Shown in pieces: positions 6,741 to 59,700 of a DNA stretch of 64,000 bases (position 1 is the stretch's first letter; every line of letters begins with the position of its first letter). The DNA is from Odiellus spinosus. Its lineage: Eukaryota; Arthropoda; Arachnida; Opiliones; Phalangiidae. The position numbers were made by a program, and so were the translations under genes. The stretch spans positions 7,306,001 through 7,370,000 of the forward strand of contig OY987233.1 in the NCBI GenBank assembly GCA_963920705.1, given 5' to 3'. The notes under the pieces were generated by a model. That model was not told where the DNA came from and ran no database searches. It was given only the letters and a program-made list of their open reading frames with translations.

Positions 6741-8139
6741 GTCATATTATTTTTTATACTACGGTGCAAGTAGGGTTGGGGGTTAAATTTACCTAAATGA
6801 TATTTCAACTGGGTAAGAGGTTTATTCTTAATAGTATTATTAATATATGTACAATCTACAAATAAAGGAATATAGACGTCTATATCGAAGAATTCTCATT
6901 TGACTCTTTCTTCCAAACTGCACCTTTTTTTTTTTTTTTGTAATATAAATCCGTCTTTCTTTCGTATTAATTTTATTTTTTTCGGGGAGTAAAATACGCT
7001 ATACACAATGACATCGAAGCACTGCAAAGAACAATCCTCTTGATGGCGTTAAAAAAAAGTTTAAGAGCATTTATACCCCCGTTATTTTTTTTATTTTTCA
7101 TAGTATCATCGTTATTATTCTTTTTCCCCGATTCGTATCCGCGATATAATTAAAGCTTACGGTATAGACAAATATATGAAACTAAGATTATATCGTACAA
7201 TTTTTTGGTGCGTTTTGTTGCATCCTAATTTTTTTTCTTAATTTGTAAATTTTTTTGTATTTTTTTTTCTCATTAAATGATAACACAGTGAGCAACACAG
7301 CCTGCAATATCCACTGGAGGGTTTTTTTACGTCGCACGTCTGGAAGTCTCCCATTTTATAATAATTATAATCTATAGATGGTTTGCCTCCTGAAAACAAA
7401 TTTACAATCATTTTGAAATGAGAAATATTGGGTTCTCAGACAAAACTTGTCAAAATCTACGCTGAAAAATCATGTAAGATTCAAAACATCATCGCGAATA
7501 CAAGGTTAATGCTAATATGACAATGCAAAGGTCTATATTTTGAACGTAGAAATGCAATTCTTGATTCGGGCCTTGTCAAATTGATCTCGAGGTCAATCGC
7601 GAAAATGGTACATGTATTTGTTCACTAAATTATCGAATAAAAACTTACATTTGGTGAATTTGGCATTAGCCTCCAATATACCTCCTCAATCACAGCTCGT
7701 CTAAAAAACAGAACCAAATCAACGATTAGACTGAGAAATATAAATAAAAGGTAATTATACATTGATTCTTTTTATAGTTAACATAGGAATGAACTAACGC
7801 TAAGGAAAGATGCTGAAACACAGGGAACATCGTAGCCAAATGTTTTTCTGAACTATAGTTATACAGTATGGTTCAGATCAAAAAACTCAATACAGGGCCT
7901 CAACTCGTTAAGCGAATTTTTTTTATAGGAAAAATTGGATTCTTCTGTCAAAATTATAGGATTTTATAGGACCATTTTCATGAAATTATAGAATTATATA
8001 GGACAATATTTTAATAAAGTTCATCAGTTTTAAACAAATTTATTGAAATAATTTAATATTTAAAATCTAAAAAGGAGCAAGGATGGCATTGGACGATAAT
8101 ATGGACTACCAAGAATTGATTCTCCTGTCTACTTTATAA

Positions 8140-11100
8140 TTATCCTGCCAATTTTAAAACTCTCCTGTCTATTTTAAAACTCTCCTGTCTATTTTAAAAC
8201 TCTCCTGTCTATTTTAAAACTCTCCTGTCTATTTTAAAACTCTCCTGTCTATTTTAAAACTCTCCTGTCTATTTTAAAACTCTCCTGTCTATTTTAAAAC
8301 TCTCCTGTCTATTTTAAAACTCTCCTGTCTATTTTAAAACTCTCCTGTCTATTTTAAAACTCTCCTGTCTATTTTAAAACTCTCCTGTCTATTTTAAAAC
8401 TCTCCTGTCTATTTTAAAACTCTCCTGTCTATTTTAAAACTCTCCTGTCTATTTTAAAACTCTCCTGTCTATTTTAAAACTCTCCTGTCTATTTTAAAAC
8501 TCTCCTGTCTATTTTAAAACTCTCCTGTCTATTTTAAAACTCTCCTGTCTATTTTAAAACTCTCCTGTCTATTTTAAAACTCTCCTGTCTATTTTAAAAC
8601 TCTCCTGTCTATTTTAAAACTCTCCTGTCTATTTTAAAACTCTCCTGTCTATTTTAAAACTCTCCTGTCTATTTTAAAACTCTCCTGTCTATTTTAAAAC
8701 TCTCCTGTCTATTTTAAAACTCTCCTGTCTATTTTAAAACTCTCCTGTCTATTTTAAAACTCTCCTGTCTATTTTAAAACTCTCCTGTCTATTTTAAAAC
8801 TCTCCTGTCTATTTTAAAACTCTCCTGTCTATTTTAAAACTCTCCTGTCTATTTTAAAACTCTCCTGTCTATTTTAAAACTCTCCTGTCTATTTTAAAAC
8901 TCTCCTGTCTATTTTAAAACTCTCCTGTCTATTTTAAAACTCTCCTGTCTATTTTAAAACTCTCCTGTCTATTTTAAAACTCTCCTGTCTATTTTAAAAC
9001 TCTCCTGTCTATTTTAAAACTCTCCTGTCTATTTTAAAACTCTCCTGTCTATTTTAAAACTCTCCTGTCTATTTTAAAACTCTCCTGTCTATTTTAAAAC
9101 TCTCCTGTCTATTTTAAAACTCTCCTGTCTATTTTAAAACTCTCCTGTCTATTTTAAAACTCTCCTGTCTATTTTAAAACTCTCCTGTCTATTTTAAAAC
9201 CCTCCTGTCTATTTTAAAACCTAGCTGTCTATGTTAAAACCTAGCTGTCTATGTTAAAATTCTCCGGTCTATTTTAAAATTCTCCGGTCTATTTTTAAAA
9301 TTCTCCGGTCTATTTTTAAAATTCTCCGGTCTATTTTTAAAATTCTCCGGTCTATTTTTAAAATTCTCCGGTCTATTTATAAAATTCTCCGGTCTATTTA
9401 TAAAATTCTCCGGTCTATTTATAAAATTCTCCGGTCTATTTATAAAATTCTCCGGTCTATTTTTAAAATTCTCCGGTCTATTTTTAAAATTCTCCGGTCT
9501 ATTTTTAAAATTCTCCGGTCTATTTTTAAAATTCTCCGGTCTATTTTTAAAATTCTCCGGTCTATTTTTAAAATTCTCCGGTCTATTTTTAAAATTCTCC
9601 GGTCTATTTTTAAAATTCTCCGGTCTATTTTTAAAATTCTCCGGTCTATTTTTAAAATTCTCCGGTCTATTTTTAAAATTCTCCGGTCTATTTTTAAAAT
9701 TCTCCGGTCTATTTTTAAAATTCTCCGGTCTATTTTTAAAATTCTCCGGTCTATTTTTAAAATTCTCCGGTCTATTTTTAAAATTCTCCGGTCTATTTTT
9801 AAAATTCTCCGGTCTATTTTTAAAATTCTCCGGTCTATTTTTAAAATTCTCCGGTCTATTTTTAAAATTCTCCTGTCTATTTTTAAAATTCTCCGGTCTA
9901 TTTTTAAAATTCTCCGGTCTATTTTTAAAATTCTCCGGTCTATTTTTAAAATTCTCCGGTCTATTTTTAAAATTCTCCGGTCTATTTTTAAAATTCTCCG
10001 GTCTATTTTTAAAATTCTCCGGTCTATTTTTAAAATTCTCCGGTCTATTTTTAAAATTCTCCGGTCTATTTTTAAAATTCTCCTGTCTATTTTTAAAATT
10101 CTCCGGTCTATTTTTAAAATTCTCCTGTCTATTTTTAAAATTCTCCTGTCTATTTTTAAAATTCTCCTGTCTATTTTTAAAATTCTCCTGTCTATTTTTA
10201 AAATTCTCCTGTCTATTTTTAAAATTCTCCTGTCTATTTTTAAAATTCTCCTGTCTATTTTTAAAATTCTCCTGTCTATTTTTAAAATTCTCCTGTCTAT
10301 TTTTAAAATTCTCCTGTCTATTTTTAAAATTCTCCTGTCTATTTTTAAAATTCTCCTGTCTATTTTTAAAATTCTCCTGTCTATTTTTAAAATTCTCCTG
10401 TCTATTTTTAAAATTCTCCTGTCTATTTTTAAAATTCTCCTGTCTATTTTTAAAATTCTCCTGTCTATTTTTAAAATTCTCCTGTCTATTTTTAAAATTC
10501 TCCTGTCTATTTTTAAAATTCTCCTGTCTATTTTTAAAATTCTCCTGTCTATTTTTAAAATTCTCCTGTCTATTTTTAAAATTCTCCTGTCTATTTTTAA
10601 AATTCTCCTGTCTATTTTTAAAATTCTCCTGTCTATTTTTAAAATTCTCCTGTCTATTTTTAAAATTCTCCTGTCTATTTTTAAAATTCTCCTGTCTATT
10701 TTTAAAATTCTCCTGTCTATTTTTAAAATTCTCCTGTCTATTTTTAAAATTCTCCTGTCTATTTTTAAAATTCTCCTGTCTATTTTTAAAATTCTCCTGT
10801 CTATTTTTAAAATTCTCCTGTCTATTTTTAAAATTCTCCTGTCTATTTTTAAAATTCTCCTGTCTATTTTTAAAATTCTCCTGTCTATTTTTAAAATTCT
10901 CCTGTCTATTTTTAAAATTCTCCTGTCTATTTTTAAAATTCTCCTGTCTATTTTTAAAATTCTCCTGTCTATTTTTAAAATTCTCCTGTCTATTTTTAAA
11001 ATTCTCCTGTCTATTTTTAAAATTCTCCTGTCTATTTTTAAAATTCTCCTGTCTATTTTTAAAATTCTCCTGTCTATTTTTAAAATTCTCCTGTCTATTT

Positions 11101-13114
11101 TTAAAATTCTCCTGTCTATTTTTAAAATTCTCCTGTCTATTTTTAAAATTCTCCTGTCTATTTTTAAAATTCTCCTGTCTATTTTTAAAATTCTCCTGTC
11201 TATTTTTAAAATTCTCCTGTCTATTTTTAAAATTCTCCTGTCTATTTTTAAAATTCTCCTGTCTATTTTTAAAATTCTCCTGTCTATTTTTAAAATTCTC
11301 CTGTCTATTTTTAAAATTCTCCTGTCTATTTTTAAAATTCTCCTGTCTATTTTTAAAATTCTCCTGTCTATTTTTAAAATTCTCCTGTCTATTTTTAAAA
11401 TTCTCCTGTCTATTTTTAAAATTCTCCTGTCTATTTTTAAAATTCTCCTGTCTATTTTTAAAATTCTCCTGTCTATTTTTAAAATTCTCCTGTCTATTTT
11501 TAAAATTCTCCTGTCTATTTTTAAAATTCTCCTGTCTATTTTTAAAATTCTCCTGTCTATTTTTAAAATTCTCCTGTCTATTTTTAAAATTCTCCTGTCT
11601 ATTTTTAAAATTCTCCTGTCTATTTTTAAAATTCTCCTGTCTATTTTTAAAATTCTCCTGTCTATTTTTAAAATTCTCCTGTCTATTTTTAAAATTCTCC
11701 TGTCTATTTTTAAAATTCTCCTGTCTATTTTTAAAATTCTCCTGTCTATTTTTAAAATTCTCCTGTCTATTTTTAAAATTCTCCTGTCTATTTTTAAAAT
11801 TCTCCTGTCTATTTTTAAAATTCTCCTGTCTATTTTTAAAATTCTCCTGTCTATTTTTAAAATTCTCCTGTCTATTTTTAAAATTCTCCTGTCTATTTTT
11901 AAAATTCTCCTGTCTATTTTTAAAATTCTCCTGTCTATTTTTAAAATTCTCCTGTCTATTTTTAAAATTTTCCTGTCTATTTTTAAAATTCTCCTGTCTA
12001 TTTTTAAAATTCTCCTGTCTATTTTTAAAATTCTCCTGTCTATTTTTAAAATTCTCCTGTCTATTTTTAAAATTCTCCTGTCTATTTTTAAAATTCTCCT
12101 GTCTATTTTTAAAATTCTCCTGTCTATTTTTAAAATTCTCCTGTCTATTTTTAAAATTCTCCTGTCTATTTTTAAAATTCTCCTGTCTATTTTTAAAATT
12201 CTGTCTATTTTTAAAATTCTCCTGTCTATTTTTAAAATTCTCCTGTCTATTTTTAAAATTCTCCTGTCTATTTTTAAAATTCTCCTGTCTATTTTTAAAA
12301 TTCTCCTGTCTATTTTTAAAATTCTCCTGTCTATTTTTAAAATTCTCCTGTCTATTTTTAAAATTCTCCTGTCTATTTTTAAAATCCTCCTGTCTATTTT
12401 TAAAATTCTCCTGTCTATTTTTAAAATTCTCCTGTCTATCTTAAAATTCTCCTGTCTATCTTAAAATTCTCCTGTCTATCTTAAAATTCTCCTGTCTATC
12501 TTAAAATTCTCCTGTCTATCTTAAAATTCTCCTGTCTATCTTAAAATTCTCCTGTCTATCTTAAAATTCTCCTGTCTATCTTAAAATTCTCCTGTCTATC
12601 TTAAAATTCTCCTGTCTATCTTAAAATTCTCCTGTCTCTTAAAATTCTCCTGTATCTTAAAATTCTCCTGTATCTTAAAATTCTCCTGTATCTTAAAATT
12701 CTCCTGTCTATCTTAAAATTCTCCTGTCTATCTTAAAATTCTCCTGTCTATCTTAAAATTCTCCTGTCTATCTTAAAATTCTTCTGTCTATCTTAAAATT
12801 CTCCTGTCTATCTTAAAATTCTCCTGTCTATCTTAAAATTCTCCTGTCTATCTTAAAATTCTCCTGTCTATCTTAAAACTCTCCTGTCTATCTTAAAATT
12901 CTCCTGTCAAATTTAAAATTCTCCTGTCAATTTTAAAATTCTCCTGTCAATTTTAAAATTCTCCTGTCAATTTTAAAATTCTCCTGTCAATTTTAAAATT
13001 CTCCTGTCAATTTTAAAATTCTCCTGTCAATTATAAAATTCTCCTGTCAATTTTAAAATTCTCCTGTCAATTTTAAATTTCTCCTGTTTACTTTATAATT
13101 CTCCTGTCTACTTT
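8140..13114. repeat. ~5 kb minisatellite of 20-21 bp units in stratified variant blocks
   Basis: Blocks in order: 8161-9200, 52 in-register copies of TCTCCTGTCTATTTTAAAAC (20 bp) that look identical; 9201-9259, transitional units with CTAGCTGTCTATG; about 9260-10100, 21-bp units with TCTCCGGTC and a five-copy TATTTATAAAAT sub-block near 9370-9450; about 10100-12428, over 100 copies of the 21-bp TCTCCTGTC unit with five T's; about 12429-12900, 20-bp units with TATCTTAAAAT, including shortened units at 12636-12700; 12901-13080, units with GTCAATTTTAAAAT. Block-wise homogeneity indicates successive local amplifications. There is no spacer diversity, so it is not a CRISPR array. Confidence 0.98.
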
Positions 13115-16095: not shown

Positions 16096-16457
16096 GCTAC
16101 TCCTGTGATCTGCTCCTGATAGACTTTTTTTTTTGAAAATACTCCAAATATCTTTGATTTAAATCAATGATTTAAATCAAACTGATTTAAATCACTAACC
16201 CTGACGCATTTATAACAAACACCTCTTTCAGTTCAAGCACCATTTCAAAGACAAACTCTCATTTTCATTAGTAATTGAATCCTTTCGAAATAAATCTGAA
16301 ATTCTTAAGAGTCTAATTTTGCAAATATGATTATGTTCTAAGGCATATTGCATGCCTAAATTGATTGAAAATAGCCTTTTTTCAGTGTCTAGTATCACTT
16401 TAAGAAATGGGATCTTTTTTTAAATCCAAACAAGTCAAGAAATTGTTAAAAACTCAC

Positions 16458-17865
16458 TTGGCACACAGACCTCCTCCAGGAGGAAGATCAGGTATCTCTT
16501 CTTCTCCTAAATGGTGCATGACGTCATTCAAGTCCAACTCGCTCTTGTTTGTTACGATATCTAAGTTATAAAACTCTTATTATAACTTTCATTCTTTTAA
16601 CATTTAGCTTAAAGGCGCATTTTCAATCAAGATTTTTTTTTGTTAAAGAATCAAACTTTTGCGTCAAAACAAAGATGAAAATTAAATCAAGCTTTTTGTT
16701 TAATCAGATATAAAATTGAATTTGATATTATAAGCTTATCTCCGAAAAGATAAAGCTTTAAAAATGTTGATTGAAAAAGGGTTTTACGACAACCCGATAT
16801 TCTTACCTCTGATTTTCTTTTCCAATAAAGAGTTTAATTCCTGATCCTTATTTCGGGCTTCCTGACTAATGCCGGGTGAACCTGGCAAAGTAACGAGTAC
16901 GATACTCATATTATCTTTACTTCCCTGTAAAAAGGATATAAATAATTAGCGATGAGGTAGGTTTTCGGGTGGCTTGAATCTAAATGTAAATATGAGACTT
17001 TTTAAGGTACCTTATAAAGACAAGTGTCAATGACGAGACTACATATCTTCTCTAAATCATTGGTGATTCGCAACATGTGACGCACAAAATCACAAAGTTC
17101 CTCATTAATCATGAGGTCCCAAATGCCGTCGCAAGCCAACGCAAAGAATTCGTCATTCTTATTGTCCCGCTCGTGAACCAAAATCTCTGGTTCGGGAGAG
17201 ACCAACTGCTCGCAAGGCCCTTTTCCCTCCACTTGCTTGTATTCGTAATCACCAAGCGCTCGAGAGACCGCGAGAGAACCGTTGACTCGCTGGATCATGA
17301 CGCTTCCTCCCGCCTTCTGAATTCTTTCCTTTTCAGTCGGATTGACTGGTTTGTGATCTTGAGTCGAAAAGTAGGCTTTCAAAGATCGGGAAAGGACGGC
17401 CCGAGAGTCACCGCAGTTAGCGAAAAAAATATGAGTAGGAGATACTAGCGCGCAGACAGCGGTGGAACCGCTTCGATCCTCTCCCGATTCCACTTCGGGA
17501 ATAGTTTTCATTTTTTCGTCCAAACGCAAGAATCCGTCGCGAATACCGCTTTTAACACTATCGATAACCTCGGGGGTTACCGAACTATTTGTGGCCAAAG
17601 CGCTAACTTTAAATTCTTCCGTTTGTATGATGGAATCTATAAGATTCTCCGCACAGTGCGCGCTAACTCGAGCTCCGGCGTGACCGTCGAAAACCGCGAA
17701 AAAACTCCACTGGCTTAGTCCGTGAGGAAGTCCGATCCTAGCGCAATGAGCGTCTTCCATCTCAATGCGCCATCCTTGCATGCTTGCCAAACCATAAGAG
17801 AGCCCATTGCCAGCCCCCTTTTCTGTGTGCTTTTCAGTTTTAGGAGTGTCTAAAAAAGCTCCCAT
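16458..17865 (-). CDS. PPM1A: PP2C-family Ser/Thr phosphatase, PPM1A/PPM1B (alphabet) type, 3' end missing
   Basis: Mg/Mn-dependent phosphatase of the cytosol and nucleus; the vertebrate and fly family members dephosphorylate kinases in stress (p38/JNK, TAK1), TGF-beta and Ras pathways. Three phase-compatible exons: 17011-17865 (285 codons, start ATG at 17865), 16807-16924 and 16458-16560. Catalytic motifs are intact: R33, E37/D38 in [11 protein letters not shown]60-G61 in [18 protein letters not shown] at 132-136, NCGDSRAVL at 150-158, D246 in ACDGIWD, and D289-N290 in [10 protein letters not shown]. The PPM1A/B-specific C-terminal helical region follows, ending with the signature [12 protein letters not shown], then a GTGAGT donor. 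At least one more exon must lie to the left; I could not identify it. Nearly the whole catalytic domain is in one exon. PPM1A versus PPM1B cannot be separated; insects usually have one such gene. Confidence 0.96.
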
Positions 17866-24896: not shown

Positions 24897-27619
24897 GTAA
24901 GTTTTAAAAGGCCTGCAATCTGTCTTTTAGATTGTTAAATTACTGTTCTTAGTTGAATATTAGTCTGCAACCATTTAAAAATAACTAGTTTTTCTAAGGC
25001 TGGGCGAGTACTTGTTTTTTCAAGTACTAAGTCGATTGGATTACTCGTTACCACAGATTTTGCTACTCTTGATGAGTTATCGAGTTTTCTATTCAACCTA
25101 CTACTCGATAAAACAGTCCAGTTTTCCTTTAATGCTCTGAAAATTAAAATCTCTGTTTTCTTTTACCATCAGAAAGCCAAAAAAGAAGACCCCAATAACA
25201 ACATCTATGATCATGCATTCATCGAGACTTAAATATTACCGCCGAAAATAATTTTGCCTATACCAATCTGCCTGCTTTTTGTTCATTCCCAGCTATACCT
25301 CCCTTCACCCAATTTTATAATATCTGGCCCATGGTGGATGAAAGCCGTTGAAACGATGCTTATGTTATAATAGAAGCTCAGGGGTAGATAGGTTTATACC
25401 TTTAACCAAGATACGGATACTTTCTCAAGATTATTAGAATTAAAAATGATTTGATATGAAGATGGAATATATCATAGTACAATTTTTATATTTAATAATA
25501 TCCCTGGTACTTAAGTAAAGAAGTTTTATAATGTGAAACACGGAGAGCGGGTTATTTGTTTACCAGTAACTAGTCAAGGCCTGTCAATTATGCTCGTAAG
25601 GCATTATAAACAGTTATTTTAAACGAGGGGGAACCCACGAAGAATACATTGCTTTAAGTGGTTTAAAATTTACTATGAATCGGTTTTTAGAGAGACCAAA
25701 TGAAAAATTTGATTGGAATATGTCTGGGTATGAGTGAGAGGGCTTTAGTATAGCAAATGTTCCCATGACATATCGTTTGCTTCAGGAACAAATAAACAAT
25801 CATGATTAGTCAAAGAGATCGTAATCAAGATTGGCTTGCATGGACATTCATGCTCTTTGTTCGAAAGATATACAGATACAACAATTCCGTCGCGAGATTC
25901 TAATAGCTCGAAAATTTGGCCACTCCATTTTTCTGAAAATTAATTTCTCTCGAAAAAAATCAAGGTAAAAATCCCAGTTTCAAATCTTTTGCGAGAAAAC
26001 GGTTGAATACTTTTAGGGAAATTTTGTTTGGACGAAATTTATTTTGGCTGCGTACCACCTATTCTGCCACCCACCTCAGCTATTTTTTGAAGTCACATAA
26101 TGCTTAAGAAACATTTTAGGTCTATGATGCGTGATGTTATTGTTCAAAAATATCCTTGGTGGTCTGAGACCTTACTCTCTGACTAAACATTAGATAAGAA
26201 ACACCAATTGGTTGCTATTACGCAATTTACGGGCCTTGATTAGTGGTTATATATTTAGAAGAAAAAAACTACAGGGTTCGTACAAGATTTCTTAAATGAA
26301 TTTCCAGGTTTTCCAGAATACTTTCAGAAACGCATGGAAACTGTTATAAGTCTGGAATGTAAGCTCTACGGCACTTTATGTAATAGGTGTACCCTTATTT
26401 CTAACCTACCCCCTTTGGCAGATGCTTTCGATTGAGGGGCGTAGTACAAGGAACACTCTTGAATAGGCACCTAAGAGATCGTTTGGAACGCTGGTGTTCG
26501 ACCATAGTTCCGTGGTTATTTGTAACCATGGTAACGGTCACCCAACTCTTCTCTTATTGACCATCTTTTAAGTGAAGTGATGGGATGATATTTTTGCCAT
26601 AACGATTTCAAGGTGGCTACAGCCAAAGTTGGGGAAGGGCTAATGTCGCAGACTTCTTATAATTTCCATCCTCTTCTGCTACTTTTGATAAATTTTCCTG
26701 TGTATATTTTAACACTAAAGGGGTCTTTTAAAGCAAAAATATTAGATATATAGGTCTGAAAATAAATTAGAGCGACACAGTTTGGTGTTCAGGTGCTATA
26801 AAATTTGGTTTGTAACAGTTTATAAATTTACCTGATTTTTGTCACATAATTTTAATTTTCTCTTATTTCTCAGAGTTTTTTTTATTCAAAATCAAATCCA
26901 CAGATATTATTCCCTGATAATGCTTGCTTTTATTCAATATGTTAAATAATATGGAAATTAACCTAAGTTACTTCTCGATAGCTTTTAATTTAATTTAGGA
27001 ATATATATATACAATTGTATAAACAAGTGCCAAGAAATGACCAGACTTTCTGAACACGGAGTTGGGTTAAAGGGCGACGCAGATGGTTCAAAATGGGGGA
27101 AAAAAACCATACATAAATATCAGGCCTGATACTAAGTCACTTTTTCTGATCTTTCTGATCTAAAGCGTGGACGAGTTTAAAAATGGTTGAATATTAGGTT
27201 AGTGTTCGCGATTTCTAGACCAAGGTCCATTCTATTCCACATGGTGGAGCCACTCGCTAGAAATGCGACTACTACCTTTTCCTATGGCCAATTTTCATTG
27301 GCTCCTTGGTCACTGCTACTTAAGGCTCTATAGCTGGTACAAATAAATTTGGATTTTTTTTTTTCACCTTTTAGTCGAAAAAAGGCACTATATTTCGACT
27401 TTTTTTTAAAATGTTTAGTAACTTTTTAAACTCAATTTTAGGGTGTCAATGAGTATCAGGCCTGAAATATATACGTATTAGATTCTGGCCCGATAGAGAC
27501 CCAACCTTATTCAAATTTCCTGAGATATTGGAGGGCCTTCAACATAAATCTCTGCTTGGTAATTACAAAATTTACTGATGTCCGTTTCATTTCATCCCAT
27601 TCTCCGTGTTATAAATTTA

Positions 27620-34800: not shown

Positions 34801-37800
34801 GAGAAATTTAACAAATTACCCAAAAAATAGGTATTATAGGTTTTTATAGGATCACTTCAGAATTATAGGTAATTATAGGTATTATAGGTGGTTTGGGAGC
34901 CCTGACTGCCCAAATTGTGAAGGCATGCATCGAATCTTCTTACTTTGGTTTCAATGAGAAATATCCTAATAATTGATGTAACTACTTCTGGTTAAAACTA
35001 ATCATATGACGTCATTCCTCACTATTTACAGTACATATGTTAAAAGTTATCCATAAATCAGTCTATTCAGAACTATGTTCTGTCCAAAATTGTGAAGGCA
35101 TGCATCGAATCTTCTTTACATGGGTTTCAATGAGAAATATCCTATTAATTGAAGATTCCTAATTTTTGATGTAACTACTTCTGCTTAAAACTAATCATAT
35201 GACGTCATTCCTCACTATTTACAGTACGCGTGTTAAAAGTTATCCATAAATCAGTATATCCAGAATTATGTTCTGTCCAGAATTGTAATGGCATGCATCG
35301 AATCTTCTTTAGATGGGTTTCAATGAGAAATATCCTAATAATTGAAGATTCCTAATTTTTGATGTAACTACTTCTGGTTAAAACTAATCATATGACGTCA
35401 TTCCTCACTATTTACAGTACGCGTGTTAAAAGTTATCCATAAATCAGTCTATCCAGAATTATGTTCTGTCAAAAATTGTAATGGCATGCATCGAATCTTC
35501 TTTACATGGGTTTCAATGAGATTCCTAATTTTTGATGTAACTACTTCTGGTTAAAACTAATCATATGACGTCATTCCTCACTATTTACAGTACATATGTT
35601 AAAAGTTATCCATAAATCAGTCTATTCAGAACTATGTTCTGTCCAAAATTGTGAAGGCATGCATCGAATCTTCTTTACATGGGTTTCAACGAGAAATATC
35701 CTAATATTTGAAGATTCCTAATTTTTGATGTAACTACTGGTTAAAACTAATCATATGACGTCATTCCTCACTATTTACAGTACGCGTGTTAAAAGTTATC
35801 CATAAATCAGTCTATCCAGAACTATGTTCTGTCCAAAATTGTGAAGGCATGCATCGAATCTTCTTTAGATGGGTTTCAATGAGAAATATCCTATTAATTG
35901 AAGATTCCTAATTTTTGATGTAACTACTTCTGCTTAAAACTAATCATATGACGTCATTCCTCACTATTTACAGTACGCGTGTTAAAAGTTATCCATAAAT
36001 CAGTATATCCAGAATTATGTTCTGTCCAGAATTGTAATGGCATGCATCGAATTTTCTTTACATGGGTTTCAATGAGAAATATCCTAATAATTGAAGATTC
36101 CTAATTTTTCTTGTAACTACTTCTGGTTAAAACTAATCATATGACGTCATTCCTCACTATTTACAGTATGCGTGTTAAAAGTTATCCATAAATCAGTCAA
36201 AAAATATGGGTTTGGCTGACATGTAATGCAATATAGGGTCTATAGCCTCAAGGCTAGTCCCTCTGCCTTTCTTTGGCACTACTAGCTACTCACGCCCCCT
36301 CCCGAAAGTCTACCTAACCTCTAATAAAATAGAGTAATAATTACCAGTGACTTAGGAGAGGAAACCTTTCTGCCACAGCTTTGGTTTTTGCGAACATTTG
36401 CACATTTTCAAGCAAAAGTATAATTTTTATAGTTATATGGATCATTCATTTTGAATTTTATCAGTGAAATTGAACAAATTACCCAAAAAATAGGTATTAT
36501 AGGTTAAAAAGTGAAATTATAGGTTTTCATAGGATCACTTCAGAATTATAGGTAATATAGGTGGTCTGGGAGCCCTGGATACTGTTTTAATGGTAGAAAA
36601 TAGCGTAAAAAATGGACAAAACATTAAATTTGGTCATAAATGGATCTACTTAAATGGATCCATAAAATGGTGGTTATCATCATCTTGAAAAGCAATTCAA
36701 TATTCAATCAAGGAACAGCTAGAGCTAGTCACGTGAGCTTAACGAGTTAAGCTAGACAAGTTAATTTTTACATATTTAATCATGAATAAACAATAACTAA
36801 AAAAAAAATTACCTATACCCTATCCTATACCAATTAAACAATTTCACTCCGATAAGATCTTTCCAATTGCTTTTACGCTAAGACTAATTCAGGACTAAAT
36901 ATGATTGAAAGTAAAGAGCTTTGGAGGAGTGTCTAAGGGTGCCATAGTTACACTCTAATGAAACAGGTGTTTCGAGTGCGATGAGCCAATCCTTATTTGG
37001 CTGGAAACAATATTTTTATGGCGACTGGCCATTGCATTGCTTTGTTTTGAACTAACATATACTGGAGATTTGTTCAAAATGACCTTTTTTAATTAGATTA
37101 AGAATATTTTTCCATTTTGAAAACTGATTTTCTGGTCCCGTTGAAGGGAAAATAATCGGAATATTAATTATACGCTTACCTGTTCAAGTTTAGTGACTTT
37201 AGATTCTAAGGATTGCAACTTAAAATTGAGAGGAAATTAAGAAACTTTGTTGAATTACCAAATTAAATTAACTTGTAATAGTAGAGCTTACTTGATGTCT
37301 TATCATATCTTGGTTATCCGTGAAGTAATTAATAGATTCTTGATTCTTTATCGCTAAACAATACGGAACTTCCTTAGGTTGGTCCTTCAATAATTTAAAT
37401 TTGATTACTATCCTATATAAGTAGAAATAAATTTACTACGAACCTCTTCTATGGAATTTAGATATTTTTTAGCTCTAATTCTGAAACCAGTGACTGCACC
37501 ATTCACCGAAGCTGTTTTACGCAATGGACCAAACAGTTTTGTAGGGTTAAAAATATTTTTCTTTGGAAGATCTGAAAGCAACTATAAAACGAAATATATT
37601 CGAGAATGTTCCTTCTCAAATATTTTGCATTGATCAAAATTACCTTATCTAGAATATTAACTATAGAAACTAGGCAAGATAGTAAACATTCGTCGGTATT
37701 TCTAGTTTCAGTGTTGACAGTCGGTAATTCATGTTCAACCGCTATTTTGAAACTAAACTGTTTTCTAGCCTCTGAATTAAAAATTTTATGGTTAAACTCC

Positions 37801-40800: not shown

Positions 40801-43800
40801 TCTCCCTTTAAAGTACTTACAAATTTATATACTGAGAGAAATACATTGGCATAAAAACAATCATGGGAAAAAGATTTTTCAAATATAATTGATGGGAAAA
40901 ACAATGATGTCGTGGAACTATAAGAACCATTTCATACTTTCTAGGGTCAGATATGGGTTCTTGTTAAAAATTATATCGAGATTCAAATTAAAAAAACTTA
41001 CCCAGAGCAGAGTGGAGTTTTTTTGCTGCCTTGTCTGAAAAATGTGAAAAGATTCCTCAATCTTCTTAAGGTACGATGGATGTTCATGTAGGTATTCGAT
41101 AAACTGTAAAAAAAGTCAAGAAAACATTTGCCATTTGTGCGTCGAAGGCAGAAACATAACCCAATATCAAAGGGAAACTAGAGCTAAAAATGTAACTACT
41201 TTATTTTCAGGATGGAACACAAAATTGTGAATAAAGTCATATTTCCACAATTTTTGGGAGATATTTTCGCACTTAATTTAATTCTGAACTTGGGTTAGGT
41301 TTGAATTTCAATGTAAGGTAAATTCGGCCAATCATATTATTATTTCAGCTTTCAACAGCTATGCTATCGCAATTGAGTTTCTTAAAAAACCCTCCAGATG
41401 GCGCGAGCGCGACGCCATCACAGGGCCTCAACTCGTCAAGCGAATTTTTTTATAGGAAAAATAGGGATCTTCTATCAAAATTATAGGATTTTATAGGAGG
41501 ACCATTTCCATGAAATTATAGGTTTATATATGACAATATTTTAATAAAGTTCATCGGTTTTAAACAAAAATCAAACAAATTCATTGAAATAATTTAATAT
41601 TTAAAATCTAAAAAGGAGTAAGGTTGGCATTGGAGGATAATATGAACTACCAAGAATAGATTCTCCTGTCTATTTTAAAATTCTCCTGTCTATTTTAAAA
41701 TTCTCCTGTCTATTTTAAAATTCTCCTGTCTATTTTAAAATTCTCCTGTCTATTTTAAAATTCTCCTGTCTATTTTAAAATTCTCCTGTCTATTTTAAAA
41801 TTCTCCTGTCTATTTTAAAATTCTCCTGTCTATTTTAAAATTCTCCTGTCTATTTTAAAATTCTCCTGTCTATTTTAAAATTCTCCTGTCTATTTTAAAA
41901 TTCTCCTGTCTATTTTAAAATTCTCCTGTCTATTTTAAAATTCTCCTGTCTATTTTAAAATTCTCCTGTCTATTTTAAAATTCTCCTGTCTATTTTAAAA
42001 TTCTCCTGTCTATTTTAAAATTCTCCTGTCTATTTTAAAATTCTCCTGTCTATTTTAAAATTCTCCTGTCTATTTTAAAATTCTCCTGTCTATTTTAAAA
42101 TTCTCCTGTCTATTTTAAAATTCTCCTGTCTATTTTAAAATTCTCCTGTCTATTTTAAAATTCTCCTGTCTATTTTAAAATCCTCCTGTCTATTTTAAAA
42201 TTCTCCTGTCTATTTTAAAATTCTCCTGTCTATTTTAAAATTCTCCTGTCTATTTTAAAATTCTCCTGTCTATTTTAAAATTCTCCTGTCTATTTTAAAA
42301 TTCTCCTGTCTATTTTAAAATTCTCCTGTCTATTTTAAAATTCTCCTGTCTATTTTAAAATTCTCCTGTCTATTTTAAAATTCTCCTGTCTATTTTAAAA
42401 TTCTCCTGTCTATTTTAAAATTCTCCTGTCTATTTTAAAATTCTCCTGTCTATTTTAAAATTCTCCTGTCTATTTTAAAATTCTCCTGTCTATTTTAAAA
42501 TTCTCCTGTCTATTTTAAAATTCTCCTGTCTATTTTAAAATTCTCCTGTCTATTTTAAAATTCTCCTGTCTATTTTAAAATTCTCCTGTCTATTTTAAAA
42601 TTCTCCTGTCTATTTTAAAATTCTCCTGTCTATTTTAAAATTCTCCTGTCTATTTTAAAATTCTCCTGTCTATTTTAAAATTCTCCTGTCTATTTTAAAA
42701 TTCTCCTGTCTATTTTAAAATTCTCCTGTCTATCTTAAAATTCTCCTGTCTATCTTAAAATTATCCTGTCTATTTTAAAATTCTCCTGTCTATTTTAAAA
42801 TTCTCCTGTCTATTTTAAAATTCTCCTGTCTATTTTAAAATTCTCTTGTCTATTTTAAAATTCTCCTGTCTATTTTAAAATTCTCCTGTCTATTTTAAAA
42901 TTCTCCTGTCTATTTTAAAATTCTCCTGTCTATTTTAAAATTCTCCTGTCTATTTTAAAATTCTCCTGTCTATTTTATAATTCTCCTGTCTACTTTATAA
43001 TTCTCCTACCTACTTTATAATTCTCCTACCTACTTTATAATTCTCCTACCTACTTTATAATTCTCCTACCTACTTTATAATTCTCCTACCTACTTTATAA
43101 TTCTCCTACCTACTTTATAATTCTCCTACCTACTTTATAATTCTCCTACCTACTTTATAATTCTCCTACCTACTTTATAATTCTCCTACCTACTTTATAA
43201 TTCTCCTACCTACTTTATAATTCTCCTACCTACTTTATAATTCTCCTACCTACTTTATAATTTGCGAAATTATAGGATTATATAGGATACTTTAAAAAAT
43301 ATAGAATTTATAGGAATTATAGGACCAATTGAAGCCCTGCCATCAGAATATATTGGTAAATCTGTATCGTTGAAGGCGCTTCGGGAGCCATTGGGTTTAT
43401 CCAATTAACTGGCCGATTTTATACTTCACTTACATTCAAACTTAATAACACAACTGAAAACGAGTCAAATAATTGTTTGAAACTTCTTGAATACGTTTTT
43501 TGTTGTCATGTATAGGAAAATAATTGAAACTAGAGTTTCATTTTTAACTCCTATTTTCCCTCTAAACAGAGAACACAACCTAGCAAGTTTTTTTACCGAT
43601 TCCTTATCGTTTAAATAGGCCTGATTCACCAGTAAAAAAAAATACAAAAATTAAACTAAAAATCAATTAAAAATTACCCGGAAAATAGGCTTAACTGGAT
43701 TCATGGAGATCCTGAATTTCTTCGCATTGAAGGGACATCAACCAATGAGGAAAGGCCTGTCATTAAATCGAGATCTCCATGAGACTTTCAATAACATTGG

Positions 43801-48505: not shown

Positions 48506-50769
48506 GGAAAAAAATCTATTAAAGTACAAGTTTGAATAAACATAAATTTTTTGATTGATACACTAGTTTCAATTCAGAGCTATAGGGAAATAGAAATAGA
48601 GCAAATTGTACAAATCTCTATGTTTCTAATTCTTTTATAGAAAGAAAGGCTCATATCTAATGTTTGCCTGTCTTTGGGTACGACTTTACTTTGTGTTTCC
48701 CATGCCAAAAACCATGGTTTCTGATAGATTCGAGCATGGGAGATGGAAAGATGACAATTAAAATTTTTTTTTTAACCTAAGGCAGTTTTAACATAAATGG
48801 CGCCTAATACGTCTAATAAATGAGATTTGAATAAATCTTCACAAGTTTATTGAGAGATTGAGGATTGTTTCTGAGTTTTTCATTATACATAGTTTTTACT
48901 AAAAGAGGGTAAATGGCATTCTCCCAGTGTTGCCAACCACTTGTGTGCACAAACGCCCTGAATTTCGTTCGCGAACTCCTGGCAATCCTGGAAAACTAGG
49001 TGGAATTAAAAAAATAATTCATCTAAGGGTGTACGGTGGGTGAAAGAGATACGACAATCTGATGATCAGCCTATTCTAAACTAGATTACATTATGCTAAA
49101 CTTGGGGCTTTGAATAATAGTGGTTGGTTTTGTAATCCTCATAATAGTAGTGGCACTGACCAGGGTATGTGTTTATTCGAATTGAGACTGCTACAATGGC
49201 GTAGAGGCTAACGTCACCACTAAGTCCATTTTCCCATGTTTTGGCACTGAAATTTCGGAGATCTTTTCAAAGTTCTTCCTTCTATCCCCAGCCCAAGTAA
49301 ACGGACCCTGACACTTACTACGGTGTTATAGCTGTAGTCTTTAACAGAGTGAAGTATAGAGTGGGGAAAAGAACGTGATTGGATCACGTAACTATTGCCA
49401 GTTTTTAGTTCTACTGTTTGTCACTTGGTGAATGGAATTCTTATCCCGGTAGAGCCTCATGGATTCAGGCATTTAATTCCTACTGTTGTTTATTTGCAGA
49501 AATATTCTAGCTAGTGTAATATCATATCTTTCTCCTCACTCATTCTTTATTCCTCTCTGGTCATTAAATGCGGTCTTAAAAGTGAGGATCAGACCCTGCC
49601 TTAAACTGGGAGAAAAGTTCCTTTGGCTTGTATTATTATTGGAATAACAACTTTGCTCTATACCATAAACTAAAGTGGCCCCTGTAATTCCCGTTCACAT
49701 ACACCAATTCATTGTGGAAAATGAAATGATTCAAACAAGAAGCCATGTATTTTAATTCATTCACTCATTCATCAATGTAATTAATCATTCGAAATTCATT
49801 AAATACTTACAATATTTCTTTAAACAATTTAGCAATGTATATAAAGAGCTTTCTTGACAGCTTTCGACATGTTTATCAATGGATTTAAAGAATCAAGGTT
49901 GATAAGGGGTGTAAAACTGTAAATACTTTGATTACTGTATCAGCGCCTACTAAGTAGCTCAGGTATATACAAATGCAATTTTTTCGGTACCCTAGTCCAA
50001 GAAGGATCAGATAAGGAGAGGAAAAGTGGGAACGGCGCGCCTCCTACTGCGTTGGCCTAAACTCCCACTCTGGGAGAACGGGGGACAGACGGGGGTAGAG
50101 ATGCTTCGTGGTAAATTGTTGTCACGTGGGTAAAACGAATCCTTTATGAGACGCGCTAGCTAGCGACCACGTGACAACAGTTTACCTCGAGAATTTCCTA
50201 TCCCCCCTTTCCACCCGAGTGGGAGGTCGGCTCTTCTCTCTCTAACTCAACGCAGCCCCACTTTTCGTCTCCTTATCTGATCCTTCTTGCCTAGTCCTAA
50301 AACTACCACTTTTTTCATGCTATCTCCACCAAATTCGTCTGCTAAAAGTCATAATGAACTTCAATATAATGGGCCCAACATCATCTGTAATGCATAAGCA
50401 TAATGACCTAAGAATTTAAACCTACTTTTAAAAAGCCACATAAGAAATCCACTACATTAAAAATTTAGGTTTTAATATTATTAAAAATTTACTGAATATT
50501 TATAATAATTAAATATTTTTTCACAAACCTTATAGAGAAACGCTTATCAACAGCTCAGTTTTGAGATGGAGCTACTCTAACTGATGTCTGCTCCGCTGTC
50601 TGCTTTCAAAAAATTCAGTTCGAACTTATGAGGGTTAAACATGCGTTGTTTGTATCTGTGAAAATAGATATTATAAGTGGTTTCTACTATTATTTTTACC
50701 AATATATACATTGAAATAGTGATAAAGGCTTAAGTGTAAATCCTGGATATTCAATTAAAAACTAAGAGT
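48506..50769. other. Divergent intergenic region, PPP1R21 / BRMS1
   Basis: Both 5' flanks lie here. No clear TATA box or CpG-rich core could be assigned by eye. A foldback element sits at 49999-50288 and a repeat remnant at about 49190-49300 resembles 19330-19450. No other gene was seen. Confidence 0.5.
49999..50288. mobile_element. Foldback MITE in the divergent promoter region
   Basis: AAGAAGGATCAGATAAGGAG (49999) pairs exactly with CTCCTTATCTGATCCTTCTT at the right end. Inner pairs include AAAAGTGGG/CCCCACTTTT, and GTAAATTGTTGTCACGTGG/CCACGTGACAACAGTTTAC around GCGCTAGCTAGCG. It is GC-richer than its surroundings and carries CACGTG E-box motifs on both arms. Confidence 0.88.
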
Positions 50770-52493
50770 ATGCCAGGAATTGGTTTGAAGGACGATACCA
50801 ACGATAGTGAAGTCGAAGATATGGATCAAGAAACACCAGAAAGTGAAAAATCATCGAACGATTCCTCTTCATCGGGATCAGATGATGACGATGACGACGA
50901 CGATGATAGTTCAGGTATGATTTAATCATCAAAGTGTTATTTAGTCTAGTTGCGGGGTAGTATCTGTGATTTGGGTCATGGTGAATGCCACTTTGCTAAG
51001 AGTAGTTAATCTCCCAAAAACCTTAAGTCTAAGCTATGTGCAAACAGCCCAATCAACTTCAAACTGTGTAAGAACCTCTTTTAAACCCATGGAAAGAAAT
51101 CCAATATTAAAAGGTTTTTCTTCGGGGTGAAGCTCCCCACCATTCAAATTTTTACCATGTCTTTGTAATTGCATCACTTGCGAGTAAATGAGTAATAGTG
51201 GAAACCTTTCTTACTTTCTTCACTAAAATGTTGTTCTTCAGAAATGGATGAAGTGGATTGTGAGAGACGCCGTTCAGAATGTTTGGACGATATGGCAGAT
51301 TTAGAAAGACAATTTATGCACCTGAAAGAACAGTAAGTTTCAGAGTTGTTGAACTTTAGTAATCTGGAAAATTCTAACCCATCCTCTTCAGATTGTACCG
51401 AGAAAGGGCAAACCAAGTTGACCTTAAGCTAGATGAGGTGAGGGCAGGACGAGCTGTTGAATATATACAACCTTTAGAGGAACTTCAAGTTAACATGAGG
51501 ATACGAACAGAAATTGCTGGTAAGATGAGAATAAATTGAGGGGTTCTTTGAAACCTGAATATTCAAGGGGAGATATCTATATTACTGGTTATTTTGCAGG
51601 TATTTTAAGAGAATACAAATTAGCTAATATCACAAACAAGAATACGGCAGAAAAACTGGCATCATTTCAGAACTTTGAGGTAAAACGTCAATACTGACAA
51701 AAAGATGACAACGAATCTTTAATTTCAAAATTTGCAATATCTTTCAGAGTGAAAAAGCTCTGCTTTGGGACTCTATTAAAAGCGACTTGGAGGAAAAAAT
51801 TAGACGACTTGAAGAAGATAGAAATAATGTTGATATTACTTCGGGTAAGTTTTAATTTAATGTTTTTGTCTTAATTTTTTTTTTGTTTTAATAATTGTGT
51901 TATCATTTGCTTTATTTTATTGTAGATCTTTGGACTGAACAGGTAAACTACAAAAAGAGAGACAGGAGACCAGAATCTGTTACTAATGATAAGAGGAAAA
52001 AACCTGTTACCGTGTCTGATATCCTTTTTCGCTTGTCATTGAAGGTGTAGGGTCAATTTGGGGAAGGGATAGCGTGAAGAGATTTGCCAGAAGGTTTATC
52101 GTCAAGGTAGTAGATGCAGGAAACCCAAAAATAGTCTAGAATTAGAGGAATCTATGAAGCTATTTTCTTTTTGATTTGAAAGATGGTGCTACTTTACTTT
52201 AGCTAGTTAGATGGAGCTACTATAAGCTGATTTTTTTCATTTAGCTACTTAGATGGCGCTACTTTTAAGCAGATTACGTTTAGATGGCGCTACTTATAAG
52301 TTGTACTTGCAGAATAATTGTCTTTAACTATATATTTTACGACCCTTTGTGGTTTATATGCTACATGAAAATGAGATTCTTGAAGATTGGACGTTGATAC
52401 GTAAAGCTCTCAAGGTACTGGTAACAAAAACCCATTCTGAATCTGGAGTTTTAAATAATTTTTTGCTTTTTTCAGTGTACATCAGAATTTTGA
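50770..52493 (+). CDS. BRMS1: BRMS1/Sds3-family Sin3-HDAC co-repressor subunit, complete
   Basis: Nuclear Sds3-like protein that stabilises the Sin3-HDAC complex. Exons: 50770-50914, 51242-51332, 51392-51519, 51600-51679, 51748-51844, 51926-52018, 52341-52414, 52476-52493; all phases join, giving about 241 residues, close to the 246 of human BRMS1. An acidic leader ends in a poly-D tract, followed by [39 protein letters not shown], the coiled coil [18 protein letters not shown] and RRLEEDRNN, the basic stretch [10 protein letters not shown], and [20 protein letters not shown]. The short C-terminus (CTSEF) is BRMS1-like, lacking the long BRMS1L tail. The last intron (52415-52475) is optional: reading through it stays open to another stop. 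The sixth intron, 52019-52340, has AT-AC ends. Confidence 0.95.
52019..52340 (+). other. U12-type AT-AC intron in BRMS1
   Basis: The intron begins ATATCCTTTT directly after exon base 52018 and ends TATATTTTAC before 52341. The first eight bases match the U12 AT-AC 5' splice consensus ATATCCTT exactly. TCTTTAAC at 52321-52328 matches the U12 branch consensus TTCCTTAAC closely and sits about 13 bases from the 3' end, the spacing typical of minor-class introns. Removal joins VTVS + G + PFVVYML exactly as in the conserved protein. No GT-AG pair gives this junction. Inside, AGATGGCGCTACTT-like units repeat about four times (52182-52292). Confidence 0.92.
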
Positions 52494-53791: not shown

Positions 53792-56700
53792 CATTGCGAA
53801 AGTGTTAAAAACCATGGTCTTCCTTTACATGGACTGACCCTGGCGACTAAAAAATATGGTTGCCAAAAAGTTTCAGAGTTCGCGGGTTTATGACGGATTT
53901 TGTGGCTTTATAACTTGCTTCTCGCAAAAAAATTTTACTTCACAATATGCGTTTCACTACGGTAAACATTTAATATTGGTCTCATGACTGATTAATAATA
54001 GGTTGTTTTCAAGTAAAATGTCATGTTCAAAGCCCTTTTGCCCTTATTTTCAAACATTTTCTTACCTTCAAGGTTCTGGTTTTCAAAATGCCAACCCAAA
54101 ATGCGTCTCCACATTTGTTGCTGGCAAGAATGGCTTTTACGTCACACAAGACCATGCCAAAATACTTTTTAATAATCGGAACATGTTTAGCAATTGCTGT
54201 ATCACGCAAAACTTGCTAACATTGAATGAAATTTTATCATTATTGTAACATTTAGTTTCTCCGCAGTTTTAAATTTACCTTCGTATGGTAGCAGCAATTT
54301 TGCAAGAAACGAGTGCTTTGTTGTATGTTTCTTAAAAAAGCTACGACATCGTCGGTATGATCTTTGAAAAGAGCTTGTAACAGGGGCATACAATGTCGTA
54401 GAAAAAGTTCCAAGAACCTTTTTGAGTGCTAAAAAACCGTTTAAATAAACTAAGCTATTGCAAAAATAATTTAACTTTTAGTAAAATCAAAGAAACTTAC
54501 CACTAAACAAGCTTTCAAATTAGGTCGACTCTCGAAAACCTGAAATAAATTTATCGAAAGGAACGTGAAAACTAAAATTTTTACTCTTAAAAAGTAACAA
54601 TAGATTGGAATTTAATTAGAACCAAGAAACCATTGCTGACTCGAGATCAAAGGTTTTATAACACCATATTCCCTCCTCTTTTAGCTCCTCTCTAATGATA
54701 AGTTCATATCGGCTAATCTCGAGTCATTCTATTTCATTTTTACCAAACTTAACACAAAATTATTTAACGATATCCTAGTTTTTTTAAGTTTTTGACTCGA
54801 TGCTAATATGTTACTTTTAGAATTTTTTTTAGAAACCAAAAAAAAAAGGCTGCGTCACAATGAGATAAACATCAAAATGACAGAAATATTTGTAGAAAAC
54901 AAGATGGCTGCGTAACAAGGACGAATTTTTTTCATGAAACAAGAGGGCTATGTCTCAATGACAATATTTTTGGAAATCAAGTGCATCACAATAACAGAAA
55001 TATTTTTTAGAAAACAAGATGGCTGGGTATAACATTATGGAGGCAAGATTAGCATTCGTACATTCTCTGTTTTCATAAATGGGTTCTTGGTACAACCAAA
55101 AAGATTATCTAATGTGCTCGCGCTATAAAAACTAAGAAAGTTGACTGTACCTTAATAAGTGTGACTAGTTCTTTCCAAACAAAAGCTGCCTTATTCCACT
55201 TTGCGAGAATAGCTGGCGCTTCATCGTGAGAACTGGCTCTATAGTTTTCAATACCTTGAATATATTTGACTAAATATTTCAAAACGCATGAATAATACGT
55301 AGGTAGTGATAACCTAAAGAAAATTCTAATTTACTTCACTTCCTTATCTAAAATATCGTGTTTCAGAAACTCACTTGTTTAGAGTTGGAAAATCTTCAAC
55401 TTCAGCATTTCTATCTTCGGCATTTCTTAGTTTCTCGATAGGATTGTTGGTCAAAAATTCGAGGCAGTTTAACACATCGCTACTATACGTGATATACGCT
55501 TCAAGTAATTTATCAATCTTAGCGTTATTTTTGGCTCCTTTATCTTTGATATCGGACGCAGATTTCCAATGACGTTGCAAAAACATTTCTGCCATTTCTG
55601 ATACTTTAATTTTAAGAGCTTCATCTAAACTATGTTTGGCGACGGTTTCCAATAAATCCACTAAGGCTACTGCGCAGTCAAGAGATGGTAAACCTTTTTC
55701 GAATTTAGATAAATAACCGAAACAAGACCTTGGGAGTACGTAAAAGTAAAGTTTGCAAAACATGGCAAACTAAAAGATTCAGATTTAAAGTAGACAAGAA
55801 ACTTGACTTAATTTTGGGTCTGGTCAAATTGAATTTTAATTATTTGGGACATCGGTTTTGCTATTCATTTTAGTAGTGTGGCTTACTAGTATGATGTTTA
55901 CTATGGAATGAGCCACATGACTAAAATTTAAAGTAAAACCAAGTCATAAATTATTCAGTTTTTTTTTTCTATTTTAGAAAAATAAAGTAATGTGCAAGTT
56001 CAATTTGACAAAGGCTTGAAATAAGTCAGTTTGCACATGCACTTCAAGGCTTAATAGAAGCATACTTAGTTTTTTCAATGCTGGAAGCTTTTGCGTTAAG
56101 ATTAATCGTTAATCTTGATCCAATTTTGAACATTGCTTGTTCAAGCATTTCAAAGTGATCAATATCGTGAAAACCATTCCACGATAAGATAGCGTTGAGA
56201 ATATTTATAAGGTACAACATGCAACGAGATACGGTTAAAGTCATATCCGAATCCAAACCAGAATCACCGTTGATTGAAGTTTCATTCATATTTTCATTCA
56301 ATGACTTTATGACGGAGAAAATAAGGATTTGAATGCCGATATATGTTAGAAAAGGGCCTTATTTTGTAAGAGTTACCTCAAAATATCCATTGCAATCTTC
56401 AAACAGAGTACAAAAAGAAGGTAACATGTTGACCATGCAACCACATACGTCTGTCGTGGAATAAAGTTTCAAATTTGAGAAACCCGCATCTTTCCTTGAA
56501 TTAACAGTCTGAAATTTTGTTATATAAGACATGCGGATGAGTAATTCCTACAAATAATATATAATTCTCAAAAATATATATACCTTCAACGAGGAAAGAC
56601 GTTTTCCTACACTTTGAGGTAGAATGTGCTTAAGTTTTAGGTATAAATCATCCAAGAGAAATTCTAAATGCTCTGGTTCTAATTTACAATTGCTTTCATC

Positions 56701-59700
56701 CTTAATATAAGTTATATTTGTTATTTTCTACCTTAGTTCGTTAATTAAAATGAATCAAATACAGAGTCGAGTACAGAGTACTCGTCTAGCCGTATTATTT
56801 TTCTATATACCGTGTTTTCTTTTTCTTTGTCAGAATACACTTTTAGTCCACATTCCAGCAACACGAATGTGGTTAGGTCTAGTTCTCTGTTAGTAATAAT
56901 TTTTCCAATAAAACTGTAACGAATTGAAGAGTGAATATTTAAAGATTAGCTTACCGAAAGAACGGTCTAAAAAATGACAAGTCAACTTCTCCATTTTTTA
57001 TCATTGGTTTGTCCTAAAAGAGAAATTTTAAAATACAATGGCTGAATTTGGTTGAAAATGGAAAATCAAATAAGTCTTTCACATACTGCGGGATTCGATG
57101 GAGTAGGAAGAGCTGTAAGTGAAACATATGTACTTTCAGGGTCATTTTCTTTGTCATTTCCATCTAGTTTTCTCTTTCGTCCTCTTCAATGAGATAGAAT
57201 ACATTTAAGCTTAGTAAAAATATAACAGAAATGGCAAAGAGTAAATCCTAAGCCTACTTTTTTGGTTTGGCAGCGGCTGCTTTCTTAGGCGCCGAGATGG
57301 AAACAATTGAAGCTGATGATGTAGGCGTAACATCGTTCAAGTCAAAATTAGCTTTCGGTGGTTTAAAATCTGGGTAATCTGAAAACTTTAAAAGTTAGAC
57401 CAAGATACGCCTACCACGAGAAAAAAAAAACTTACATAGCAAAAACATCTGAAGTTTCTTTTGTAGTTCAATTACATTTCCGATTCTCTGAACAACTTTA
57501 GATCGATTCTCGTCGTTATTAATCGGAGCAAATGCGTTAATAATCTTTCAATATTAAAATAATAAAAAATTTTGTAACCAAATTTAAATTTAGAATGCGT
57601 GTACGCTTACTTCTCGAAACCAATTAATACAATGAAAAGTAGCGGTGCAAAGTAAATTTATTTTTTCAGTAGAAAGACAATTTAAACCACTCGCATCATG
57701 GTGAAAAGTTTTGGGCAAAGCAACGCCACATACTAAAAGAGCGTCTATCTCTTCCAAATTACCTTCTTCTCTAAAATGAACGCACATGCGTAACAAACGA
57801 AAATGGGACGAGAGAGTTCGTCTAATGAAATTTCAGAAAATGTGTCAGTATTATTAACACAGTTGATTTTGAATGGTAATTACTCACGATAAATGATTCC
57901 CCCCTCTAGCTTCCAATTCACCCTTATTCAATAAGTCATCTTTAATGACTAATGCGGTCAAATTAAGAATAATAGAGTCTTCAGTTAACGGTTCCAAATT
58001 ATAGCAGATGACAATCTCCGTACCAAGACTAAAAATAAATTTTGCGTCACGTACTCTCAGGAATACTCTATTACACAGTGGCGCCGCCAAGAATGCTTAG
58101 TGAGTGGGCTAAGAGATAATTTAGGGCTCCTTAAGCTTAATTTCAGAGGCGCCTCAAGCTTGATTTTGGGGTCCTTCTAACTTGATTTTGGTTTTTGGAG
58201 GCCCTAAAGGTTGATTTCAGGGCTTTTCAAGCCCAATTTCAGAGCCCTTCTAACTTGATTTTGGTTTTTGGGGACCCCTAAAGCTTGATTTTGGGGACCC
58301 CTAAAGCTTGATTTTGGGGACCCCTAAAGCTTGATTTTGGGGACCCCTAAAGCTTGATTTTGGGGACCCCTAAAGCTTGATTTTGGGGCCCCCTAAAGCT
58401 TGATTTTGGGGCCCCTCAAACTTCATTCCAGGGCCAGCCTCTCTTGCCTGATTATAGGGTGGGATCCGTACAAAATTTTCAGGTGCCTTCCTTCACCACC
58501 CCTGGCGTTGCTGCTTCTATAGTCAACCTTTACCATTCTTTTAATTCGGGAGTGTAGTCTGCAACGTATTCTGTCTCAAATGTTGACCCAATCTTAACAT
58601 CGACCCAGTTCTAATTAAAACAAAAATTCATGTTAATTTGTAATTTTTTATCGATTTATGCCAGTCAGACATTGTCTCAATTACTTCTATTTTTTCTGAG
58701 AGTTCACCCATTTGAATGGCTCTGGCTATCTCGTCCCAAAAAAGGCCTTGAACTTCGGGATTTACATTATCTTTATTCTGAAGAATGTCTAACAGAGATA
58801 CGGCCACTGTAGACAGCCCGCTTAGTGGATTATTTTTCGACATTCTTCTCGATGTTAGATTATTAAGAGATATGTTGCTCGCGTTTAAGGTTGATCCATC
58901 CGTAGTTACTTGGTCGGCACTTATTTCTCTAGCTGCCATTAAACAACCAATAACTCCCATTTTTTGATAGCTAAATCACGAAACATCCAATGATTTCACA
59001 ACAAAAAATTGGCTTGTGTGGGTATCAGAATATGAATAAATACAAATACACATACCTAATTTTTACATTGGTTAACTGTTTAGTTATCATAATGTGAAGA
59101 TTATCCTATAAGAATAAGATATAATACTATCAAAACTCAATTAGGTAAAAAACTAATCCTTACCTGTCCCAAAGCTCCTTGATCCCCTCCTTGAAAAGCA
59201 ATTCTTGTAAGCACAAAATATACCTTACGTATTTGTGTCAAATTAAAAGTTTCCAGTTTGTCGAGCAAAAACTGGAAAGATTAGAAAAAGTTTTAATTTT
59301 GTCGCTGAAATAATAAGAAAAATTAAGATGGAACAAGCAACCGCATCCATAATCTACGTCACACTTTCAAAAGCAGGGAGAGATGTAGTATTTCCTGAAT
59401 TAATATTTTCAAATTTATACTTGAAAAATGGTTGCTTTTAAAATTTTAAAAAATAGAGAAGTGAAAAAAGTGTGGAAAAGGCAGTTAAGGTTCGTGTTTT
59501 ATAACTTGATTCTTTGTGAAGATTTATTGAGATTCATTTCAACATAGGATAGGTTATAAATAAGATGTCAACATTACACTTTGAAGTGTAAAAAACTACG
59601 CCATGATTATGCATTAAATACAACAATGGGGATGGAGATGGGACACAAACCTAAGAGGGTAATACTTTAATTTCCTGTGACGAGGGGAAAGAAGGTGTAT

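Follow-up and report, generated by a model that had tools for sequence, protein, structure and literature searches.

Analysis of a 64,000-nucleotide stretch of Odiellus spinosus contig OY987233.1 (the window) indicated that intron 6 of a BRMS1/BRMS1L-type gene belongs, with a probability of roughly 93% judged from the sequence, to the AT-AC subtype of U12-type introns. We consider a U12-type AT-AC intron strongly indicated because the reading frame leaves no GT-AG or GC-AG alternative and the AT-AC ends are accompanied by both U12 signals, a coincidence expected by chance at about 1e-5.

Structure and family of the BRMS1-like gene

The gene model comprises the following features.

50770-52493, plus strand: BRMS1-like gene with eight predicted coding exons and a product of 241 residues
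50770..50914, plus strand: exon 1, coding part from the ATG, followed by GTATGATTTA, phase 1
51242..51332, plus strand: exon 2, flanked on both sides by GT-AG introns; the BRMS1 coiled-coil match starts here
51392..51519, plus strand: exon 3
51600..51679, plus strand: exon 4
51748..51844, plus strand: exon 5
51926..52018, plus strand: exon 6, ending in ...KKPVTVS and the first base of a Gly codon
52341..52414, plus strand: exon 7, starting with GACCCTTTG and encoding (G) plus 24 residues
52476..52493, plus strand: predicted last coding exon (CTSEF-stop), placed by splice-site form only and the least certain exon

The predicted product is of BRMS1/BRMS1L type, within the Sds3/BRMS1 family. A Pfam search matched Sds3 (PF08598) to residues 63-191 (E 1e-19), and a search of PDB sequences matched the human BRMS1 coiled coil, 2xus_A, to residues 54-100 (E 1.7e-11). 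Identity to provisional human sequences, not drawn from a database, was 49% for BRMS1 and 59% for BRMS1L. Introns 1 to 5 and 7, six of the seven, have GT and AG ends, and their 5' sites share between 2 and 5 of the 8 bases of ATATCCTT.

The Sds3 match stops short of the C-terminal block encoded by exon 7, and the last 48 residues of the product had no match in the Pfam or PDB searches. It resembles an SGPYIVYML...ILEDWT block that is conserved in the provisional human BRMS1 and BRMS1L sequences. When the provisional human BRMS1L block was scored against all six frames of the window, it reached 82 at exon 7 and 24 at the next best place, and V-S-G-P and I-L-E-D-W-T were invariant in the alignment with the provisional human BRMS1 and BRMS1L. 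Pattern searches for relatives gave 2 and 201 matches in viral contigs and 597 and 23 in prokaryotic genome contigs, none of them confirmed, and no match in phages with a query of 150 bases from the exon 1 region only; these searches say nothing about animals, since the collections hold viruses and prokaryotes.

Elsewhere in the window, seven other long open stretches were compared with Pfam, yielding four matches above the curated cut-off (PP2C, MYND finger, KLRAQ and FancD2), one FancD2 match below it and two stretches with no Pfam match, a gene set that we presume to be animal-like. The two FancD2-matching stretches lie on the minus strand at 55371-55769 (E 3.3e-17) and 58628-58975 (E 0.0062, the one below the cut-off), downstream of the BRMS1-like gene and convergent to it. 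A short element at 49991-50297 has 33-nt terminal inverted repeats that are 97% complementary and sits between two CCTAGTCC copies; its layout resembles that of a non-autonomous DNA transposon flanked by a 7-8 base target duplication, and its 21-base end had no other copy in the window at up to 4 mismatches. Tandem arrays occupy 8119-13114 (period 21, about 243 copies) and 41660-43262 (period 20, about 80 copies), with the near-identical unit ATTCTCCTGTCTATTTT(T)AAA, and a further array of a 193-base unit (6.5 copies) spans 34964-36198. The stop-free stretches of about 1000 codons in the array at 8119-13114 arise because its period of 21 is a multiple of three.

The reading frame at the junction of exons 6 and 7

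The segment between exons 6 and 7 carries the following features.

52019..52340, plus strand: intron 6, AT-AC, predicted U12-type, 322 nt, phase 1, laid out as ATATCCTT...TCTTTAAC-N10-AC
52019..52026, plus strand: 5' splice site ATATCCTT, 8/8 against the U12 AT-AC consensus quoted in an excerpt of PMC2831892
52048..52050, plus strand: in-frame stop TAG, following ten open codons in transcripts that retain the intron
52321..52328, plus strand: branch-site-like TCTTTAAC, 7/8 against TCCTTAAC, with the motif end 12 nt from the intron end
52339..52340, plus strand: 3' splice site AC

We enumerated all joins from donors at 51945-52159 to acceptors up to 52429 that lay at least 25 nt apart, with any dinucleotides at their ends, and kept a join if exons 1 to 6 and the exon-7 frame stayed stop-free. 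The 1352 joins that passed led from exon 6 into the frame of exon 7 and included no GT-AG and no GC-AG pair. When six dinucleotide classes were tallied among them (GT-AG, GC-AG, AT-AC, AT-AG, GT-AC and AT-AA), only AT-AC, with nine joins, and AT-AA, with one, occurred. The initial annotation had claimed that the frame can be completed only by an intron with AT and AC ends, and the enumeration agreed in leaving no GT-AG or GC-AG alternative to the join of 52018 with 52341.

The AG dinucleotides near exon 7 were mapped as well. They start, within 52280-52419, at 52282, 52299, 52311, 52374, 52384, 52405 and 52413, while a TAA stop in the exon-7 frame (52325-52327) sits within the branch motif, and the next AG appears only at 52374, in the coding stretch. 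No AG acceptor can therefore yield PFVVYML, since the first three AGs precede the TAA and the others fall inside the coding stretch of exon 7.

Donors at 51986 and 51989 also gave frame-keeping AT-AC joins and were set aside, as they match ATATCCTT at 2/8 and 3/8 positions compared with 8/8 at 52019. From the donor at 52019, the acceptor at 52340 produces VSGPFVVYML and is the only one to produce S-G-P-F; 52343, a second AC that is also in range of the branch site, drops Gly-Pro to give VSAFVVYML, and 52328 gives a stretch of 14 residues. The intron limits proposed earlier, 52019..52340, were exact, with the AT donor at 52019, the AC at 52339-52340 and exon 7 running from 52341. The accompanying claim that the joined protein matches the conserved family block is in line with VSGPFVVYML at the junction and with the match to the provisional human sequences.

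GT-AG splicing that skips exon 7 or takes a cryptic site, leaving a protein without the C-terminal block, would have some material to work with, as the intron contains GT-like sites, 52045 and 52107 among them, and an AG lies at 52311-52312. No GT-AG pair among the enumerated joins reaches the exon-7 frame, however, and skipping exon 7 would discard a block conserved in the provisional human sequences, so that we regard splicing of this kind as very improbable. Slightly less improbable, though still a slender prospect, is that the gene is a decayed copy or that the segment is never removed, in which case translation would run from exon 6 to the stop at 52048-52050 and terminate. Exon 6 does stay open for ten further codons, as retention would have it, whereas the remaining exons join in frame by ordinary GT-AG sites and exon 7 keeps both the family block, as defined by the provisional human sequences, and an open frame that directly adjoins the AC, arguing against this reading.

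U12-type signals and their chance expectation

PMC2831892 quotes ATATCCTT as the U12 consensus at the 5' site and TCCTTAAC as that at the branch site. The first annotation had described the 5' end as an exact match and the branch motif as lying at the right distance from the AC end, and both statements agree with our measurements: all eight positions of 52019-52026 match, and the second A of the 7/8 motif TCTTTAAC, at 52327, is 13 nt ahead of the last intron base. The ten bases that follow the branch motif, TATATATTTT, are T-rich (7/10 T), so that the lack of a pyrimidine tract expected of U12-type introns is not evident here. A table in PMC7367187 shows the same TCTTTAAC core for Monodelphis RNF121, in an intron of U12 type.

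AT-AC ends may also be handled by the major spliceosome, as in a few sodium-channel introns, and U2-dependent AT-AC introns do exist according to PMC2831892. Those sodium-channel cases, however, have G at +5 (same paper), whereas here a C occupies +5 within a 5' site that fits the U12 consensus at every position, and the intron also has a U12-like branch site. Both features make major-spliceosome use highly unlikely and favour the U12-type assignment.

Across both strands of the window and with the real site counted, 4 of the 11957 AT sites carry ATATCCTT, and 23 of the 5974 AC sites are preceded by a motif resembling the branch site whose end lies 8-20 nt from the end of the intron. The chance of both signals was 1.3e-6 per pair, or about 1.2e-5 over the nine frame-keeping AT-AC pairs, an estimate in which the branch patterns were picked after the site had been seen. 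A joint motif scan allowing introns of up to 2000 nt and five branch variants returned intron 6 and one more candidate, 16939..16434 on the minus strand. We rejected the latter as a U12-type intron, as 16939 stands, by eye, just before the AG acceptor of an ordinary GT-AG intron of the PP2C gene. Because the scan also picked this site, the case for intron 6 rests on the frame evidence and not on the motifs alone.

Besides 16939 (minus strand), exact copies of ATATCCTT occur in the window at 364 and 26150, both on the plus strand. The copy at 26150 was rejected as a second U12-type intron, with stops in the one frame translated, and that at 364 was covered by the joint scan, which did not return it. 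GTATCCTT was absent from the window.

When duplex energies were computed with provisional human snRNA segments, the sites did not stand out from background: random window segments paired at least as well in 612 of 2000 cases for U12, 222 of 2000 for U11 and 146 of 2000 for U6atac. A search of the window against Rfam at the gathering threshold had no hits. As a separate observation, a motif near TAGATGGCGCTACT is present four times within the AT-AC intron (52180-52294) and once upstream of the gene (50563-50576), with no further copy on either strand of the window at up to 2 mismatches.

Proposed splicing route and relation to known minor introns

In the minor spliceosome, U11 and U12 recognise the two sites, U6atac then takes the place of U11, and the two exons are ligated. 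For intron 6, we propose that U11 and subsequently U6atac would pair with ATATCCTT, while U12 would base-pair in the region of TCTTTAAC, where the probable branch point is the adenosine at 52326 or 52327. The minor spliceosome would then join 52018 to 52341 and restore Gly-Pro-Phe. If splicing failed, translation would be expected to add ten residues from the intron and stop at 52048-52050, so that the protein would lack the C-terminal block; it follows that a slow minor spliceosome may limit the amount of full-length protein. An intact minor spliceosome in the host is a fair inference from the perfect 5' site.

Intron 6 resembles known U12-type AT-AC introns in its ATATCCTT 5' site, in a TCCTTAAC-like branch site near the 3' end and in its AC end, and also in being one such intron beside six GT-AG introns in a single gene. 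It differs in that its branch site, TCTTTAAC, is one base off the consensus, and its removal by the minor spliceosome is predicted from sequence. PMC7367187 puts the AT-AC fraction of U12-type introns at 8.6% for Apis, 47% for Drosophila and 26% for human, and according to PMC10639083 Diptera, springtails, ticks and mites have strongly reduced sets of minor introns. BRMS1 is absent among rows 7 to 19 of the fly table in PMC2831892.

The initial annotation had left aside whether BRMS1 or BRMS1L genes of other animals carry a minor-class intron at this position. This was answered in part, as an excerpt of PMC3728624, the one paper on minor introns in BRMS1 or BRMS1L that searches of the available library returned, counts human BRMS1L among minor intron-containing genes. 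It does not state the position or subtype of that intron, and the likeness to the gene described here is one at the level of the family. The AT-AC intron is accordingly a further example and not very novel, since human BRMS1L is already on record as minor intron-containing. The same excerpt reports suppressed expression of human BRMS1L in HeLa cells and an increase with anisomycin, findings that its authors considered consistent with limiting U6atac. A tentative extension, to which we give clearly less than even odds, is that the common ancestor with vertebrates already had the AT-AC intron at this position and that it was retained as a point of minor-class control over a SIN3/HDAC corepressor subunit, with the full-length protein tracking the U6atac level in both lineages.

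Intron 6 offers a clear case of a minor intron with AT-AC ends, one that gene predictors restricted to GT-AG ends would miss, truncating the end of the protein. If its position proves to be that of the minor intron in vertebrate BRMS1L, it would be a further case of long minor-intron retention, and minor splicing in this organism could be followed with the gene as a simple reporter.
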